From assembly GCA_944325495.1 (NCBI GenBank), contig CALVAD010000006.1, positions 1 to 64,000 on the forward strand: a stretch of DNA of 64,000 nt, written 5' to 3'. A program made the translations under genes and the position numbers. The stretch comes from an uncultured Bacteroidales bacterium. GTDB taxonomy: Bacteria > Bacteroidota > Bacteroidia > Bacteroidales > UBA932. Positions within the stretch are counted from its first letter, which is position 1. Every line of letters begins with the position of its first letter. The notes under the pieces were generated by a model. The model was not told the DNA's origin and did no database searches. It was given only the letters and a program-made list of their open reading frames with translations. Shown in pieces: positions 14,538 through 51,396 of this stretch.

Positions 14538-14652
14538 TTCCGGCGGCATGCTGTCTCCTGAGAGGCTGGCCGCCCACGGCCGTGAGTGGGTGCCGCGTCA
14601 GCGGCGGGATGGAGCGGAGCGGAACCTCTCAGGAGGCAGCATGCCGCCGGAA
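14538..14652. repeat. Family B palindrome upstream of trmO
   Basis: Arms of 28 nt (14538-14565 and 14625-14652, one mismatch) enclose a 59-nt centre starting CTGGCCGCCC and ending GCGGAA. The left arm contains the first codons of the longer trmO frame, and the right arm is an inverted copy of them. The centre is shared, on the opposite strand, with the palindrome at 51259-51396. Confidence 0.85.
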
Positions 14653-15941: not shown

Positions 15942-16249
15942 CCTCGATTCAGGTTTTAGTGAATATTGTCCGCTGAAAGGACGGCTGCAGAAAATCTGCG
16001 TGGTCGGGAGTTTTCAGCAAAACATGTAAAGATACAAAAAAACAGGCAATCTGCTCCCGGGAGGCATAAAACTGGGAATAGCCTCCCGGGAGCAGATTGC
16101 CTGTTTTTATATCGCCTGACCTGCCGCTATGTCGGCAACCGGTCTTGATTCGGTCCGGCCCGGCGTCTTGCGGAAGAAGCTTTTCGAACCTGTCATCGGC
16201 GGAAGTCCCGGCATCCTCCGGCAGGCCGGTTCATCATAGTCCGCGCTCG
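15942..16249. other. 308-bp intergenic region
   Basis: It lies between the start of the M23 gene and the stop of the PCMD gene, both on the minus strand. Its only clear content is the perfect palindrome at 16038-16108. An A/T-rich segment before the M23 start probably holds its promoter, but no box is strong enough to mark. Confidence 0.6.
16038..16108. repeat. Family A palindrome, perfect 28-bp arms
   Basis: Arms 16038-16065 and 16081-16108 are perfectly complementary, with A5 and T5 at the outer ends. The loop ATAAAACTGGGAATA is framed by GGGAGGC and GCCTCCC. The outer A/T runs make it a possible bidirectional terminator; it would end the PCMD lipoprotein transcript on the minus strand. 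Confidence 0.9.
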
Positions 16250-23780: not shown

Positions 23781-25078
23781 AAAAACTCTTTACCGCAGTA
23801 ATCTGCATGCTGCTTGCGGCTTCGGCCGCCTGCTTCGCGGCTGACCGCGAGCATACTCTCAAGGTCTACAACTGGGCGGACTACATCGACGAGGACCTCA
23901 TCGGTGAATTCGAGCAGTGGTACGAGGAGCAGACCGGAGAGCCGGTGGAAATCATCTACCAGCTCTTCGACATCAACGAGGTCATGCTCTCGAAGATCGA
24001 GAAGGGCCACGAGGACTTCGACGTGGTGTGCCCTTCGGAGTATATAATCGAACGCATGCTGCGCGCGGATCTCCTGCTTCCCATAGACAAGGATTTCGGT
24101 GACACTCCGAACTACCTGAGCAATGTCGCGCCCTTCATGAACGATTTCCTCTCGCAGGTCGACGGCAACGGCAAGGACGCCAACGACTATGCGGTGCCCT
24201 ACATGTGGGGTACGGTGGGCATAACCTACAACACCGATTATGTGACCCCCGAGGAGGTCAGCAGCTGGGATGTGCTCAAGGATCCCAAGTTCCAGGGCAA
24301 GGTGCTGATGAAGGAGGCTTTCCGCGATGTCTACACGAGCTTCAACATCGCTCTGAACCGCGACCGCATAGATAATGGCGAGACCACGGTGGAGGAACTC
24401 TCGTATGACGCTTCTCCCGAGTCCATCGCCCGCGTGGAGGCTTATCTGAACGAGATGAAGCCCAACATCGCCGGCTGGGAGGCCGATTTCGGCAAGGAGA
24501 TGATGACCAAGGAGAAGGCCTGGCTCAATCTGACCTGGAGCGGCGACGCCCAGTGGGCGATCGAGGAGGCCGAGGCGGTGGGAGTGCCCCTCGACTATGT
24601 GGTGCCCGAGGAGGGCAGCATCGTATGGTTCGACGGCTGGGTGATTCCCAAGTATGCCCGGAACGTCAAGGCCGCGCGCTACTTCATCAACTTCATGTGC
24701 AAGCCCGAGAACGCGCTGCGCAACATGGACGTGATAGGTTATGTGAGCGCGATCGGCGGCGACGAGATTCTGTCGGCGATGAGCGACAGCACGGCTTATG
24801 CTCCCATCGACGCGAGCTATTTCTTCGGCGAGGCCGGAAAGGGCGCGCATCTGAACCAGATCATGTATCCCGACGCGTCGGTCATGAAGTACTGCGGCAT
24901 GATGCATGACCGCGGCACGGAGGAGCTTCTTGCCATGTGGTCGCGTGTGAAGGGCGACAATGCGGGCGGTCTGACGGTGATCATCATCGGTGGCATCGTG
25001 GTGCTGCTGATTGCCGCGGTGGTGCTCAGCAGCCGCAGGAAGAAGCGCGGCCACAGGCGCGCGGCTTCGCGCAGGTAG
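23777..25078 (+). CDS. potD: Polyamine-binding protein PotD with C-terminal membrane anchor
   Basis: A 433-residue substrate-binding protein of the polyamine importer. A Sec signal peptide (MKKLFTAVICMLLAASAACFA) precedes LKVYNWADYIDEDLIGEFEQ, the PotD/PotF hallmark, and the ligand-pocket segment PYMWGTVGITYNTDY. Unusually, the last 40 residues form a hydrophobic helix (VIIIGGIVVLLIAAVVL) followed by a strongly basic tail (SSRRKKRGHRRAASRR), so the protein would be tethered to the inner membrane by its C-terminus. Typical PotD proteins are soluble or N-terminal lipoproteins and about 350 residues long. A Cys near the signal-peptide end (AACFA) gives a weaker lipoprotein alternative. Confidence 0.92.
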   Translation: MKKLFTAVICMLLAASAACFAADREHTLKVYNWADYIDEDLIGEFEQWYEEQTGEPVEIIYQLFDINEVMLSKIEKGHEDFDVVCPSEYIIERMLRADLLLPIDKDFGDTPNYLSNVAPFMNDFLSQVDGNGKDANDYAVPYMWGTVGITYNTDYVTPEEVSSWDVLKDPKFQGKVLMKEAFRDVYTSFNIALNRDRIDNGETTVEELSYDASPESIARVEAYLNEMKPNIAGWEADFGKEMMTKEKAWLNLTWSGDAQWAIEEAEAVGVPLDYVVPEEGSIVWFDGWVIPKYARNVKAARYFINFMCKPENALRNMDVIGYVSAIGGDEILSAMSDSTAYAPIDASYFFGEAGKGAHLNQIMYPDASVMKYCGMMHDRGTEELLAMWSRVKGDNAGGLTVIIIGGIVVLLIAAVVLSSRRKKRGHRRAASRR

Positions 25079-25133
25079 CGCCCGACATCGGGGCTTGCCC
25101 TCCGGAGGGCTTGCTTTTATAAGCTATGAGTAT

Positions 25134-25207
25134 TGTGACGGAGCCGCACGCGCCAGGGAGGCGGAAATTCAGGGAATAGCCTCCCTGGCGCGTGCGGCTC
25201 CGTCGCA
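25134..25207. repeat. Family A palindrome, 29-bp arms
   Basis: Arms 25134-25162 and 25179-25207 pair with one mismatch. The loop GGAAATTCAGGGAATA lies between GGGAGGC and GCCTCCC. Arm sequence is unrelated to that of the palindromes at 16038 and 43638 apart from the inner 7 bp. Confidence 0.9.
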
Positions 25208-25252
25208 GTTCCGGTTTTTGGAAAGCTCCGTTTCTGCTGACCCGTAGAATCA

Positions 25253-25520
25253 GAGGTCCGCCGCTGCCGTTCGGGAGGCTCTGCCCGAATGTCCCAGCCT
25301 TCCGGGTGGCAGCGCAAATCCCGTCAACTCCACTTCAATCTGCGCATAAGCGAGGTCCGCCGCTGCCGTTCGTGAGGCTATACCCGGAATTTTCCTGCCT
25401 TCCGGGTGGCAGCGCAAATCCCGTCAACTCTACTTCAATCTGCGCATAAGCGAGGTCCGCCGCTGCCGTTCGTGAGGCTATACCCGGATTTTCCTGCCTC
25501 ACGAACGGCAGCGGCGGACC
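25253..25520. repeat. Tandem 100-bp repeat, 2.7 copies, ending in a palindrome
   Basis: Units start at 25253, 25352 and 25452, each with GAGGTCCGCCGCTGCCGTTC. Units 1 and 2 carry a degenerate right arm (GCCTTCCGGGTGGCAGCG) and then a spacer ending GCGCATAAGC. Unit 3 instead closes as a perfect 25-bp palindrome (25454-25478 and 25496-25520) with loop TATACCCGGATTTTCCT, the minus-strand version of the family A loop. Confidence 0.9.
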
Positions 25521-25547
25521 GCAGCGTATCACATAGAGAAATGAAAC

Positions 25548-27014
25548 CTACCGATTGTCGCCGAGACTGCGGTAGCGGCCCAGGTTGAACACCAGACCGA
25601 CATAGACGTCCAGGTTCAGCTTCCCGCAGGGAAGGCTGATGCCGTCGAGCGCCTCGACGGGAGGAGTCACATTCAGTATGGCGCTGTCAGTGCCGACATA
25701 CAGACCTATGCCGGGCAGGTCGATGTTGAGCACTGCTCCGAGGGAGGAACCGTAATTGGATATGCCGTAGCTCGCCGAGAAGCCGAACCACTTGGTCGGA
25801 GAGACGTTGGCCGAGAACCTGCCCTCGTGCATCGAATACAGCCCGTCTATGCGCGATGAATAGAGGAAGCCGACCGAGAGCCTGCGGTAGAAAGGCAGCT
25901 CGTATTCGGCGCCGAGATTGACCGTGCAGGCCAGCATCCTGGCGCCGGCCTTCGAAGCCGCGGCGCTCTTCTCGAAGACCACCATGTCGGCGAGGCCTTC
26001 GCCTATCGAGCCGAACTGCGACTCGATGCTGTTCTCGCTCCCTTCTTCGAAGGAGATGTCGTTGAAGCCGCCGAACTCCCAGCTGTTCTGCGAAGTGGTC
26101 GCCTGCAGATGGTTGGTGCCCCAGGAAATGAATCCCAGGTCGAGAACGGCCGCGGAGACATTGAGACCTTCGAGCAGGCCGTCGAACTTATATTCGGCAC
26201 CGAGATCGATCGCGGCGCCGTAGCTCAGAGAGCTGAGGTCCGACATCAGGCGGTCGGTGGAAAACTCCATCCCGGCGAAGTCCAGTTGATTGGCAGCCGC
26301 AGGATCGGTGGACGCGCCGGTCTCGCCCTTGGTCGGAATCACGAGCCCGGGGACTGATGAATTCAGGCTTCCCTGGGCCGTGATGCTCCATTTGTCCCCG
26401 TTCATGACCACGTCCATGTTGTCGACATGCGCGTTGACATTGGCAAGACCGACGAGCACCTTGACCTTGGCGCCGATATTCAGGTTCTCGCTGATGCTGT
26501 GGGAGTGTCCGAGGGCGAGCTCCGCATACGCGCGTCCGCTCACGTCGAGATTGCTGATGTTATATGACTGACGGGCGCCCAGGTTCTTCATGAAGTCGAA
26601 GAGGTCGTAGGGGAGATTGGCATGCACGTCGGCCCTGAGATTGAGTTCGACGGAGGTGAAGCCGTTCTTCCCCCAGGAGCCCACGGAGATGATGTTCGTT
26701 TTCAGACCGACGCCGATGTCGTTGTCGGCTTTCAGCTTCGAGAGGAACTCGTCGGCGGACACGCTGCTGTTCATGAAGGTCGTCAGCTGTCCGTCCCGGG
26801 GGTAGAGCAGAGTGTTCATGCCGAGGTCGCTCCTCGTGCCGGCGGTGATGCCGCCGATTGCGGGAAGGCTGAAATAGGAACGGCTCGGTGCAAGGGCTGG
26901 ATTCAGCCGGTGGCGGTATTTGTAGCCGTCGAGGAAGTATGCCGAATTCAGGTCCTGGGCCGCTGCGGGCAGGCATATCGCCGCTGCGAGCAATGCTATG
27001 TGCAGTTTTTTCAT
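25548..27014 (-). CDS. DUF5723-type outer-membrane protein
   Basis: A 488-residue exported protein with signal peptide (MKKLHIALLAAAICLPAAAQ). The sequence after it, LNSAYFLDGYKYRHRLNPALAPSRSYFSLP, resembles the DUF5723/PorV-like barrels of Bacteroidetes, where an NPALAP motif follows the signal. The rest is alternating beta-strand sequence ending in GLVFNLGRYRSL. An exact function is not known. Its start overlaps the stop of the large lipoprotein gene upstream by 4 nt, so the two products are made together and probably form a surface complex. Confidence 0.75.
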   Translation of the reverse strand: MKKLHIALLAAAICLPAAAQDLNSAYFLDGYKYRHRLNPALAPSRSYFSLPAIGGITAGTRSDLGMNTLLYPRDGQLTTFMNSSVSADEFLSKLKADNDIGVGLKTNIISVGSWGKNGFTSVELNLRADVHANLPYDLFDFMKNLGARQSYNISNLDVSGRAYAELALGHSHSISENLNIGAKVKVLVGLANVNAHVDNMDVVMNGDKWSITAQGSLNSSVPGLVIPTKGETGASTDPAAANQLDFAGMEFSTDRLMSDLSSLSYGAAIDLGAEYKFDGLLEGLNVSAAVLDLGFISWGTNHLQATTSQNSWEFGGFNDISFEEGSENSIESQFGSIGEGLADMVVFEKSAAASKAGARMLACTVNLGAEYELPFYRRLSVGFLYSSRIDGLYSMHEGRFSANVSPTKWFGFSASYGISNYGSSLGAVLNIDLPGIGLYVGTDSAILNVTPPVEALDGISLPCGKLNLDVYVGLVFNLGRYRSLGDNR

Positions 27015-35309: not shown

Positions 35310-35372
35310 ATGCTGACCTGCTGCTTCGAGGGAGGCTTTTCCCGCCTCCCGAGGGGCACGCACGGTCAGCAT
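35310..35372. repeat. Family A-like palindrome between dut and murF, short loop
   Basis: The inner stem GGGAGGC/GCCTCCC encloses the 7-nt loop TTTTCCC (GGGAAAA on the other strand). The outer 9 bp (ATGCTGACC/GGTCAGCAT) also pair, but the middle of the arms is mismatched, suggesting a decayed copy. Confidence 0.7.
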
Positions 35373-40111: not shown

Positions 40112-40140
40112 GGGAGGCGATTTGGAGGGATTAGCCTCCC
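40112..40140. repeat. Family A palindrome core, decayed arms
   Basis: GGGAGGC and GCCTCCC enclose the loop GATTTGGAGGGATTA. The outer flanks share only scattered complementarity (ATGC and a few bases), so the arms appear to have decayed. Confidence 0.75.
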
Positions 40141-40503: not shown

Positions 40504-41628
40504 ATGAAAGAAAAGATAGTTCTGCGCGACAAGGCTTTCAAGCCATACATCAGCCATGACAAAATCATGGACGCGATTGACAGGGTGGCGGAGAAGGTCA
40601 ATGCTGATTTCAGAGGGTGCGACGACGTGCCGATCGTGCTCTGCGTCCTCAACGGCGCCATACCCTTCACCGGAGAGCTCCTCCAGAGGCTCGATTTCAA
40701 CTGCGAGCTGGTCTCCATCAAGATGTCGTCCTATCAGGGGACGAAGTCCACGGGCACGGTGCTCACGATGATGGGACTGACAGCCGACGTGAGCGGACGG
40801 CGCATAATAATCTGTGAGGACATAGTCGATACCGGGAACACCATAGTCGCCCTCAAGGAGCTGCTGCTCGACAAGGGCGCGTCAGACGTCAAGATCTGCA
40901 CGATGCTCTTCAAGTCCGGAGTCTATGCGAAGCCGGACAAGATCGACTACATCGGCATGGACATTCCGAACGCGTTCATCGTGGGCTTCGGCCTCGACTA
41001 CAACGAATTGGGACGCAATACCAGGGACATTTACGTAATTGATGAAAATATGAAGTATTACATTCTTTTCGGCCCTCCGGGAGCCGGTAAGGGCACCCAT
41101 GCCGGGGCCGTAGCGGAGAAGTACAATCTCAAGCATATTTCGACGGGAGAGCTCCTGCGCGCGGAAATCGCCGCAGGCACCCAGCTCGGCAAGGAGGCCA
41201 AGTCGCTTATCGATGCCGGAGAACTCGTTCCGGATTCAGTGGTCGAAGGCATGATAGAAAGCGCCTTCGACAAGATCAAGGGAGTCGACGGCTTCCTGCT
41301 TGACGGCTTCCCTCGCAATCTCGCACAGGCGCAGGATCTCGACAAGATTCTTGAGAGGCGGGGCAGCGGCGTCACCGCGGTGATCTCGCTGATGATTTCC
41401 GATGACATGATACGCCAGCGCATCGCGAACAGGGCGGCGATCGAAGGCCGCGCCGACGACGCCTCCGAGGCCACCATCACCAACCGCATCCGCACCTACC
41501 ACGCCCAGACCGAGCCTCTGATAGAGTACTACAAGAAAGCGGGCAAGTACTATGAGTGCAACTGCGAACACGGCGACATCAACGAGAACCGCCGCCGCGT
41601 GCTGAACCTCGTGGACAGCATACAGTAG
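40504..41628 (+). CDS. hpt-adk: Hypoxanthine phosphoribosyltransferase-adenylate kinase fusion
   Basis: A 374-residue cytosolic protein joining two purine enzymes in one frame. Residues 1-182 are hypoxanthine phosphoribosyltransferase (PRPP loop IICEDIVDTGNT at about 103-113; flexible loop SSYQGTKSTG), which salvages hypoxanthine or guanine to the nucleotide. Residues 183-374 are adenylate kinase (P-loop GPPGAGKGTHA at about 190, ISTGELLRAEI, LLDGFPRN, short LID RAAIEGRADDASEAT without zinc Cys), which interconverts AMP, ADP and ATP. The adk part begins with its own Met (codon at 41050), so internal initiation is possible. Genes for these two enzymes are often adjacent in Bacteroidales. Confidence 0.93.
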   Translation: MKEKIVLRDKAFKPYISHDKIMDAIDRVAEKVNADFRGCDDVPIVLCVLNGAIPFTGELLQRLDFNCELVSIKMSSYQGTKSTGTVLTMMGLTADVSGRRIIICEDIVDTGNTIVALKELLLDKGASDVKICTMLFKSGVYAKPDKIDYIGMDIPNAFIVGFGLDYNELGRNTRDIYVIDENMKYYILFGPPGAGKGTHAGAVAEKYNLKHISTGELLRAEIAAGTQLGKEAKSLIDAGELVPDSVVEGMIESAFDKIKGVDGFLLDGFPRNLAQAQDLDKILERRGSGVTAVISLMISDDMIRQRIANRAAIEGRADDASEATITNRIRTYHAQTEPLIEYYKKAGKYYECNCEHGDINENRRRVLNLVDSIQ

Positions 41629-43637: not shown

Positions 43638-43708
43638 AAATGCTGGATGCTCCCTCATGGCAGGCTTTTCCCCAATCATTGCCTGCCGTGAGGGAGCATC
43701 CAGCATTT
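43638..43708. repeat. Family A-like palindrome, 28-bp arms
   Basis: Arms 43638-43665 and 43681-43708 pair with one G-T. The loop TTTTCCCCAATCATT (minus strand ...GGGGAAAA) lies between GGCAGGC and GCCTGCC. The right arm ends in ATTTT and the left begins CAAA, so it may terminate both convergent genes. Confidence 0.9.
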
Positions 43709-43767: not shown

Positions 43768-46700
43768 CTAATACTCGTCCCAGCTCTTGATGCCTATGTC
43801 GTCGAGCGACTTCGCGCAGAAGGCCCGGATATAGGCCGTGGCGAGCCGGCTGTTGGTGATCAGCGGCACATTGAAGTCGATTGACGCGCGCCTCATCTTG
43901 TAGCCGTTGCTGAGCTCCTTGCGCGAGTAGTTCTTCGGAATGTTCACGACGAGATCCACCTCGTGCGTGCGTATCAGCTCGAGAGCCGAAGGTTCGTCCG
44001 GTTCCAGACCGTCGGCCTCCTCATGGGGCCACAGCGCCCTGTGGGCCGGTACCCCGTTCTCGTTGAGGTACTTGCAGGTGCCGGCGGTAGCGTAGATCTT
44101 GATACCTTTCTCGTAGAGCTTGTGGCAGGCGAGAAGCAGGTCGGCCTTCTGTATCGGGTTGCCAGAAGAAATCAGCACCGCGTGCTCCGGAATCCTGTGC
44201 CCTACGGAGAGCATGGCCTTGAGCAGGGCCTCGTCGAGATTGTCGCCTATGCAGCCCACCTCGCCGGTGGATGCCATGTCCACTCCGAGCACGGGGTCGG
44301 CGTGGCTGAGGCGCGAGAACGAGAACTGCGAACACTTGATGCCCACATATTCGAGTTCGAACGGATCGATGCGCATCGGTTCCGGATGTTCTCCGAGCAT
44401 GCAGCGGGTGGCGAGGTCTATGAAATTGACCTTCAGCACCTTCGATACGAAGGGGAAGCTGCGCGACGCGCGCAGGTTGCATTCGATTACCTTGATGTAG
44501 TTGTCGGTCGCGAGGAACTGGATGTTGAAGGGTCCGGTGATATGCAGCTCGGCCGCTATCGCCGCGGTGGTCTTGCGTATCTTGGCGGCCGTGATTCCGT
44601 AGATCTTCTGCGGAGGGAACTGGATCGTGGCGTCGCCCGAATGCACTCCGGCGAACTCGATATGCTCGGATATCGCCGAGGCTATGACCTTGCCGTTGTC
44701 GGCGACGGCGTCGCATTCGAGCTCCTTGCACCTCTGCATGAACGAACTGATCACCACCGGATGCTCTTCCGAAACCTCCACCGCCATGGCGAGGAACACC
44801 TTCATGTCCTCCTTGCTGTAGCAGACATTCATGGCGGCGCCGGAAAGCACATAAGAAGGCCGCACGAGCACCGGGAAGCCGACCTCGTCCACGAACTTGT
44901 CGATATCGTCCATGGTCGTGAGCTCCCTCCAGCGCGGCTGGTCGATGTGCAGCTTGTCCACGATCTGGGAGAACTTGTTGCGGTCTTCGGCCCTGTCGAT
45001 GTCGTCGGCCGATGTCCCGAGCAGACGGATGCCTCCGCGCATCAGCGGCAGCGCGAGGTTGTTCGGAATCTGTCCGCCCACGCTGACGATGACGCCGTAG
45101 GGCTTCTCGAGCTCGCAGATGTCCATCACGGTCTCATAGCTGAGTTCGTCGAAGTAGAGCCTGTCGCAGGAGTCGTAGTCGGTCGATACGGTCTCGGGAT
45201 TGTAGTTTATCATTATCGACTTGTAGCCGCGGCGGTGCAGGGTCTGGAGGGCGTTGACGCCGCACCAGTCGAACTCCACGCTGCTGCCTATCCTGTAGGC
45301 TCCCGAGCCCAGCACTATGACGGTCCTGTGGCCTTCGTTGAAGTTCACGTCGTCGGTCTCTCCGTTGTAGGTAAGATAGAGATAGTTGGTGCTTGAGGGG
45401 AATTCGGCCGCGAGCGTGTCGATCTGCTTGACATGCGGCCTGAGGCCGAGGGACTTGCGCAGCGAGCGCACTTCGCTTTCCTGTATTCCGAACACCCGGC
45501 TTATCTGTATGTCGGAGAAGCCCTGGCTCTTGGCGCGGTGCAGCAGTTCCGCGCCGACCTTGCCGAGAGACTCGCATCTCTCCAGCTCGCGGTAGGTGTT
45601 TTCGATGTTCTCGAGCTTGTCGAGGAACCATTTGTCTATGTGGGTGAGCTCGTGGATCCTGTCCACGCCGTAGCCGGACTGAAGCGCGGCCGCAATCGCG
45701 AATATGCGGGTGTCCGTAGGGTTCTTCAGGGCCTCGTCGAGGTCTTCGGTCTTATAGGGCTTGTTGCACACGAAGCCGTGGGCGCCCTGGCCTATCATCC
45801 TGAGGCCTTTCTGAATCGCCTCCTCGAAGTTGCGTCCGATGGCCATGACCTCGCCGACGCTCTTCATGCTCGAACCTATCTCGCGTGAGACGCCCTTGAA
45901 CTTGGCGAGGTCCCAGCGCGGTATCTTACAGACCACATAGTCGAGCGCCGGCTCGAAGAAGGCCGGGGTCGTCTTGGTCACCGAATTCTTGAGCTCGAAC
46001 AGGCCGTAGCCGAGGCCGAGCTTGGCCGCGATGAAGGCGAGAGGGTAGCCGGTCGCCTTGGAGGCGAGGGCCGAAGAGCGGCTCAGACGGGCGTTGACTT
46101 CGATGACCCTGTAGTCCTCGCCGTCGGGGCTGAACGCATACTGCACGTTGCATTCGCCGATTATGCCCACATGGCGCACGATGTCGATGGCTATCTTGCG
46201 CAGGAAGTGGAACTCCTTGTTGGAAAGGGTCTGCGACGGGGCCACCACGATGCTCTCGCCGGTATGTATGCCGAGAGGGTCGAAGTTCTCCATGTTGCAG
46301 ACTGTGATGCAGTTGTCGTAGCTGTCGCGCACGACCTCGTATTCGATTTCCTTCCATCCGCGCAGGGACTTCTCGACCAGCACCTGGGGCGAGAAGGCGA
46401 AGGCCTTGCCGGCCAGGGCTTCAAGCTCCTCCTCGTTCTCGCAGAATCCCGAGCCGAGTCCGCCGAGGGCGTAGGCCGCGCGTATGATCACGGGATAGCC
46501 CACGCTGGCGGCCGCCGCGCGCGCCTCCTCAAGGTTGGAGGCGGCGTGCGACTTGATGGTCTTGACTCCTATTTCGTCGAGCTTTTTCACGAAAAGCTCA
46601 CGGTCTTCAGTGTCGATTATGGCCTGCACCGGCGTTCCGAGCACCTTCACCCCGTATTTGTCGAGGACTCCGCTGCGGAAGAGCTGCACTCCGCAGTTCA

Positions 46701-46983
46701 GGGCCGTCTGGCCTCCGAACGAGAGCAGTATGCCCTGGGGCTTCTCCTTGGCGATGACCTTCTCGACGAAGTAGGGGGTGACCGGAAGGAAGTAGATCTT
46801 GTCCGCCACGCCTTCGGAGGTCTGCACCGTGGCGATATTGGGGTTGATGAGCACCGTGCTGATGCCTTCCTCCCTGAGCGCCTTGAGCGCCTGCGAGCCG
46901 CTGTAGTCGAATTCTCCGGCTTCGCCGATCTTGAGCGCGCCCGAGCCCAGGACCAGGACTTTCTTTATGCTTGTGTCTGTCAT
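43768..46983 (-). CDS. carB: Carbamoyl-phosphate synthase large subunit
   Basis: A 1071-residue cytosolic synthase that makes carbamoyl phosphate from bicarbonate, ATP and ammonia delivered by CarA. Two homologous ATP-grasp halves are present (starts [21 protein letters not shown] and [20 protein letters not shown]), followed by an allosteric MGS-like domain (about 930-1071, with [20 protein letters not shown] and DLVVNIPK). Length is typical. The start at 46983 ([13 protein letters not shown]) lies 4 nt after the carA stop; an upstream ATG at 47010 would overlap carA. It is last in the arginine locus and serves both arginine and pyrimidine synthesis. Confidence 0.97.
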   Translation of the reverse strand: [1071 protein letters not shown]

Positions 46984-51258: not shown

Positions 51259-51396
51259 GTCAAAGCAGGAGGATTGCCCCCGGAGAGGTTCCGCGCTTCG
51301 CGCTTCTTCCCGTCACTTCTCCGCTTCGCTCCGAAGCGCCACCCGCTCACGGCCGCGGGCGGCCAGCCTCTCCGGAGGCAATCCTCCTGCTTTGAC
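51259..51396. repeat. Family B palindrome in the arginine locus
   Basis: Arms of 30 nt (51259-51288 and 51367-51396, one mismatch) enclose a 78-nt centre. Read on the minus strand the centre starts CTGGCCGCCCGCGGCCGTGA and ends GCGGAA, matching the centre of the palindrome at 14538-14652. The inner arm CCTCTC-x-GGAGGCA is also shared; the outer arms differ. Confidence 0.9.

Follow-up and report, generated by a model that had tools for sequence, protein, structure and literature searches.

The stretch of DNA analysed here (the window) covers the opening 64 kb of contig 6 in the studied genome (G000), a 2.02 Mb draft in 61 contigs. A sequence-only reading had described six stretches within it as palindromes sharing an inner stem and a loop that ends near GGGAATA or GGGAAAA, with outer arms that change from site to site. 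The described features are present in all six (Table 1). The further observation that four sites have perfect or one-mismatch arms holds for the four long palindromes, with the stretches at 35310-35372 and 40112-40140 being weaker; neither of these two is among the covariance-model matches at E 0.001 (see below). Likewise, only the four long palindromes are recovered as inverted repeats scoring at least 15 in the window, and two shuffled windows yield none at this score. The copy at 25134-25207 lies 58 bp downstream of a stop codon ending at 25078, that at 43638-43708 is separated by roughly 60 bp from the stop codon of a minus-strand gene (43768-46983), and the one at 25454-25520 adjoins the stop codon of a minus-strand gene. 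The last of these, with perfect 25-bp arms, is the sole full palindrome in a tandem array whose remaining units have an imperfect right arm, the 100-bp units over 25253-25499 having the right half of a family copy as their basis. A scan of the window against Rfam at the gathering score found tRNA only; at E-values up to 1, the region 25000-25600 matched microRNA-precursor models and one sRNA model, all below the gathering score.

Table 1. Features of the palindrome family and neighbouring features, by position in the window or by contig or locus.
Feature	Position	Strand	Remarks
Family copy	16038-16108	+	28-bp arms, no mismatch; 15-nt loop ending GGGAATA; A/T run at end
Family copy	25134-25207	+	perfect 26-bp arms at 25137-25204; 16-nt loop
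Tandem array	25253-25520	-	TRF period 100, 2.5 copies over 25253-25499
Probable decayed copy, 7-nt-loop type	35310-35372	-	GGGAAAA on minus strand; imperfect arms
Core and loop, outer arms nearly absent	40112-40140	+	below the model threshold
Family copy	43638-43708	-	28-bp arms, one mismatch; loop ends GGGAAAA on minus strand
Arrays headed by a copy	window 25253-25520; L056; L129/L054; L170; L050		
Orthologous pairs with inverted loop	C20:9033; C21:28356; C9:32105; C30:20942; C16:36368; C11:28589; C13:7792		
ORF	40504-41628		first half matches hypoxanthine phosphoribosyltransferase, second half adenylate kinase
Pieces of another dispersed repeat	14556-14599; 51285-51380		several copies in the sequence examined (L024, L048, L049, others); no relation to the palindrome core as far as seen

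Searches of the genome for the shared elements indicate that these palindromes belong to one family, beyond what chance would produce. The exact core AGGC-N8-GGGAAWAGCCT has 18 matches genome-wide in G000 (7 and 11 on the two strands) as against none for the reversed control, which leads us to reject a mere effect of base composition; the looser pattern GGGAGGC-N10-40-GCCTCCC occurs 28 times as against 2 per strand. The core was also found in three contigs of Candidatus Cryptobacteroides merdipullorum (G225), a member of the same genus. These matches, together with the fused hypoxanthine phosphoribosyltransferase and adenylate kinase frame of the window, suggest that the studied genome belongs to the Bacteroidales and probably to Cryptobacteroides. 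Among 400 genomes drawn from the larger genus the exact core was present in five, and only G000 (18) and G225 (11) have more than one match. G076, G356 and G410 have one match each, a level that the reversed control also reaches across the same 400 genomes; the match in G356 is a genuine palindrome while those in G076 and G410 are non-palindromic. A genome-wide search with a covariance model, which the sequence-only reading had proposed, was carried out with a model built from 25 copies. It returned 94 rows in G000, 48 in G225, three in G199 and one in G356, with none in G121, G089, G174 and G104. After merging of strands, the catalogue holds 78 places in G000, 36 in G225, three in G199 and one in G356, with weak matches retained down to E 0.001 and one G225 copy cut by a contig end (C90:1-50) left out. 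One of the three G199 matches has an abnormally long loop; one G199 copy shares its site with a G225 copy, the flanks being 80.5% identical over 3.5 kb, and the family therefore predates the split of these species, although it is abundant in two of the genomes examined, G000 and G225. Long-arm hairpins as a genus-wide habit were rejected: inverted-repeat scans of 125 kb of G199, 100 kb of G121, 60 kb of G089 and 21 kb of G174 found 12 inverted repeats, none with the core. A viral origin was rejected too, as none of 112 core matches in viral contigs had more than 12 complementary pairs among the 22 outer ones.

A typical copy has a stem of 26-30 bp and a 15-16 nt loop ending in GGGAAAA. Among 113 parsed copies from G000 and G225, the arms are at least 23 bp long in 65, 49 of them falling at 26-30 bp, while in about 30 a bubble ends the counted arm at 6-7 bp; loops of 15, 16 and 7 nt occur in 49, 39 and 11 copies, respectively. 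Within the 15-nt loops of 20 near-perfect copies, the final seven bases are better kept than most of the first eight, the successive bases of GGGAAAA being retained in 20, 20, 19, 17, 19, 14 and 20 copies. One subtype is part of a longer dispersed repeat whose flanks are conserved (11 copies aligned), as is seen in MITE or foldback repeats. In some cases a copy stands at the head of a tandem array of 76-100 bp units, with the full palindrome as the end copy; at L056, L129, L054, L170 and L050 the units measure 76-80 bp. Most of this array structure is explained by a tandem duplication that begins at the inner stem. The headed-array copies at L054 (G000 C1:167243) and L129 (G000 C9:43071) are identical despite lying on separate contigs, and at least 150 bp in front of the array is identical as well.

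We examined the placement of the copies relative to genes called with a small gene finder written for this analysis. Among the 69 copies of G000 lying between two predicted genes, 45 are between convergent, 19 between tandem and five between divergent genes; in the background, taken from sequence itself picked for copies, 27 of 103 intergenic regions of at least 70 bp are convergent. Further, copies scoring at least 60 with an adjacent gene 3' end (n=59) cluster closely behind the stop codon: 37 are at 5-27 bp and none at 28-50 bp. When the high-scoring copies were placed at random inside the same intergenic regions in 5000 trials, a mean of 19.0 and a maximum of 28 came within 27 bp of a stop codon compared to the 34 of 51 observed, and 7.3 were expected in the empty interval of 28-50 bp. 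In regions of at least 200 bp, 14 of 30 copies are near the stop codon versus 4.7 by random placement. The family thus has many intergenic copies close behind genes and is REP-like in this wide sense. Among the copies within 30 bp of the stop, 29 of the 37 high-scoring ones, and 37 of 53 when all scores are included, carry the core on the sense strand; this bias stems from G000 (25/32), with G225 being little biased (12/21), and it is gone beyond 100 bp. On reasoning alone, entry in the sense orientation followed by neutral flipping would give a sense fraction like that in G000. From their position we infer a role for the palindromes at mRNA 3' ends.

To follow individual sites across genomes, we took the 31 gene 3' ends that have a copy no more than 30 bp away and traced the first 26 of them in G199 and G225. 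Sixteen of the 26 ends could be placed in G199, with a family copy at none of them: three have a marked ordinary hairpin (slots 2, 6 and 11), and at some others the next gene follows directly. The G199 counterpart of the window copy at 16038-16108 is an unrelated hairpin. Ordinary-looking hairpins of 19 and 13 bp at G199 L070:9846 and L070:18761 correspond in location to window positions 25079 and 16038, respectively. For G225, 20 rows were obtained: 11 cover ten elements common to both genomes (one cut by a contig end), two are without sequence, one has a different element (slot 20) and six have no copy (slots 3, 11, 13, 14, 17 and 19, the gene end at slot 17 being extrapolated). As the sites were picked for having a copy in G000, these counts do not represent a turnover rate.

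The stems show strong covariation. Of the 26 pairs in the alignment of 25 copies, 22 vary on both sides, and pairing holds in 95.2% of the 650 cells, which is far above shuffled (0/500 shuffles) and slid controls. The course of these changes can be followed in 18 orthologous pairs from G000 and G225, picked by flank matches together with arm resemblance; two sites with common flanks but unrelated arms (window 25137/G225 C11:2231 and C20:15765/C100:3783) were omitted, and these could be rewritten copies. In 12 gap-free pairs covering 300 positions, we counted nine compensated, 24 one-sided and two other double differences between the arms, whereas 0.59 compensated changes are expected if the arms changed independently. 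The count left out C7, C30, C38:3425, C1:167243, C2:100142 and C11:28172 on account of indels, array or subtype copies and parsing. One of these, C38:3425, differs from its orthologue by one indel that is present in both arms. Since one-sided differences exceed compensated ones, the correction of one arm by the other is not immediate. Moreover, going by the draft assemblies of G000 and G225, from which the orientations are taken, seven of the 18 pairs (Table 1) have the loop turned over with respect to the flanks, and the other 11 do not. In one inverted pair, 15 of 15 loop bases match only when the loop is reversed. In the C9/C79 pair (C9:32105), an asymmetric arm mismatch keeps its place while the loop is turned, which places the switch in the inner stem or the loop. 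The C13/C80 pair (C13:7792) is the least certain inversion, its flanking match being short. Taken together, the compensated changes, the indel in both arms and the loop inversions support the suggestion of the sequence-only reading that the arms are copied from one another.

Compensated arms accompanied by inverted loops are the signature that has been published for template switching at inverted repeats. Polymerase template switching at short inverted repeats is reported to homogenize the arms and invert the spacer (PMC8604942), and such switching has been put forward as a source of hairpins and a means of maintaining them, loop inversions having been found in RNA genes (PMC8794818). The palindromes resemble quasipalindrome correction in arm homogenization, in compensated stem changes and in inversion of the spacer between perfect arms (PMC8604942, PMC8794818). 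The published cases are scattered single loci, yeast coding genes and RNA genes (PMC8604942, PMC8794818), whereas here there are many copies of one repeat in two bacterial species. We therefore consider it probable that these elements constitute a dispersed, clade-restricted family of palindromes of about 71 bp, whose copies evolve as hot spots for quasipalindrome template switching. Under this proposal, the copies would have spread from one ancestor by a route that we leave unspecified, and each would since then have acted as a quasipalindrome hot spot. During replication, the growing strand would briefly switch to the other arm or to the other strand, such that a mutation in one arm is copied into the other; because of this copying, arms would diverge between loci without losing their complementarity, and a switch across the inner stem would turn the loop over. 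The inner stem and the GGGAAAA motif change less and are probably constrained. As for function, the transcript of the upstream gene might end in or behind the strong hairpin, which would protect or define its 3' end, and one hairpin might often serve two convergent genes.

An alternative reading of the covariation is that the palindromes specify functional RNA stems, which are kept paired by point mutation and selection for compensation. The placement downstream of stop codons and the sense bias in G000 are in line with this, as is a sense-strand G-U count somewhat higher than that of A-C (24 and 15 mismatches, respectively, in 44 copies). However, this excess is small, G-U occupies 10 of the 650 alignment cells, and the mismatch counts provide no clear mark of RNA selection. 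Further, point mutation would not invert a 15-nt loop between fixed arms, as seen in seven of 18 pairs, nor would it easily make one indel in both arms. Hence, we regard RNA-level selection as the source of the pairing as unlikely.

The other suggestion of the sequence-only reading, namely that the arms are built from the target, would involve a small mobile core that inserts and has the neighbouring target sequence copied into both arms by foldback synthesis. The strong differences in arms between loci would follow from it. By eye the arms do differ at every site, as had been claimed, but the 45 near-perfect copies have a degenerate positional consensus (chi-square 313 versus a permuted mean of 58 and a rotated maximum of 109; 0/1000). 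It persists on thinning to 27 dissimilar arms (0/1000) or to 15 arms (4/1000) and is present in G225 as well (16 copies, 0/1000). Most simply, the arms across loci are very diverged relatives, though the consensus could also come from shared constraint rather than ancestry. Two adjacent copies on contig 12 have most of their arms in common. All arms were compared by blastn-short with 393 kb of G000 and 164 kb of G225 (overlaps counted); the matches were mostly other copies, arrays and subtypes, the further ones being isolated, 14-18 nt long and near the cut-off; within the sequence searched, we therefore reject the possibility that arms were taken from elsewhere in the genome, and the paucity of matches outside the family is also what target-built arms would predict. 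Three more observations favour such a process: at L056 the arms of the far end copy, which has an inverted loop, match its neighbours' linker; at slots 10 and 24 the arm is present once, without the core, in one of the species; and one convergent region has copies in both species with unrelated arms. However, the single-arm sites equally fit a deletion between direct repeats of 6-7 bp, and the consensus across loci in both species, the narrow range of arm lengths and the fact that orthologous sites of G000 and G225 have kept the same arms argue against arms made anew from each target. We accordingly hold target-built arms to be distinctly unlikely; of the interpretation offered by the sequence-only reading, the copying between arms stands while their origin from the target is disfavoured. 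A further scenario is one in which the hairpins are mobile and reached gene 3' ends by an unrecognised route, with the loop serving as a reversible switch: a factor would read the sense-strand GGGAAAA in the tail of the mRNA, and a flip would turn it off gene by gene. We think this most unlikely.

The GTAG and CGTC superfamilies of REPs are described as clade-limited, high-copy palindromes that lie in intergenic DNA behind coding regions and are probably transcribed; the CGTC type is reported from Bacteroidetes among other phyla and is without a known dedicated transposase (PMC3733652). The family described here resembles REPs in being palindromic, high-copy, clade-limited, probably transcribed and intergenic close behind genes, and it could be an unusually diverged REP family moved by a RAYT (Y1) transposase. 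The anatomy is nevertheless different: its stems are 26-30 bp as opposed to the 5-13 bp of GTAG and 8-9 bp of CGTC REPs, and it combines a conserved apex with drifting arms where REPs have conserved stems (PMC3733652). There is no counterpart of the GTAG or CGTC terminal tag, with no tetranucleotide conserved at or outside the arm ends and positions 27-31 being near background in 45 copies. A Y1/RAYT gene, which the sequence-only reading had recommended looking for, was not found either: PF01797 (Y1_Tnp), present in six of ten genomes searched, has no match in the G000, G225 and G199 drafts (89, 82 and 93% complete, respectively), and the same drafts have no match to the reverse transcriptase profile PF00078. 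The family is thus REP-like in position and unlike REPs in anatomy, and we give its mobilization by a RAYT transposase a still smaller chance.

Intrinsic terminators are GC-rich hairpins close behind the stop codon, and the palindromes might be ordinary bidirectional versions of these that are alike through composition. The convergent placement, the A/T run at 16038-16108, the ordinary hairpins at some G199 counterparts and a slight excess of A before the hairpin (2.03 versus 1.48 expected in 8 nt) agree with this. In contrast to such terminators, however, the stem is much longer, there is a common loop sequence, and T is not enriched after the hairpin (2.33 versus 2.25 expected in 8 nt, 39 copies); given this lack of U-tract enrichment the palindromes are not ordinary terminators. 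With the excess of the exact core over its reversed control, and other sampled genomes being without a multi-copy family, we find this explanation very improbable. Barely tenable is a dedicated recombinase that inverts the loop as a reversible switch, for although the seven inverted loops between arms left in place and the well-kept GGGAAAA agree with one, template switching yields the same outcome without an enzyme, and 15 nt would be a very short segment for any known invertase.

The model for SbcD (TIGR00619), of the SbcCD nuclease, was run on ten genomes of the genus and had no match above its cut-off, G104 and G356 giving weak ones below it. By comparison, 13 of 14 control genomes, including Bacteroides ihuae, have a match, eight of them above the cut-off. 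Going by these profile searches, the missing SbcD matches may mean that long palindromes are tolerated in the genus. If SbcCD is truly missing, this would be a possible reason for the survival of long palindromes there, but would not explain the richness of one clade in them.

In the literature searched, judged by titles and the opening lines of abstracts, we found no description of this palindrome family, and no paper joining Cryptobacteroides with an inverted repeat. Template switching at inverted repeats was known before from reporter genes and scattered loci; in the present case a single natural repeat family supplies many replicate loci in two related species. With so many replicate loci, the rates of arm correction and loop flipping, together with their dependence on strand and transcription, would be open to direct measurement. 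The family also illustrates that strong stem covariation need not mean selection on RNA, because copying from arm to arm in DNA produces covariation as well. Finally, with arms that appear to copy each other and loops that often turn over, the copies seem unrelated even though all are probably members of a single old family.
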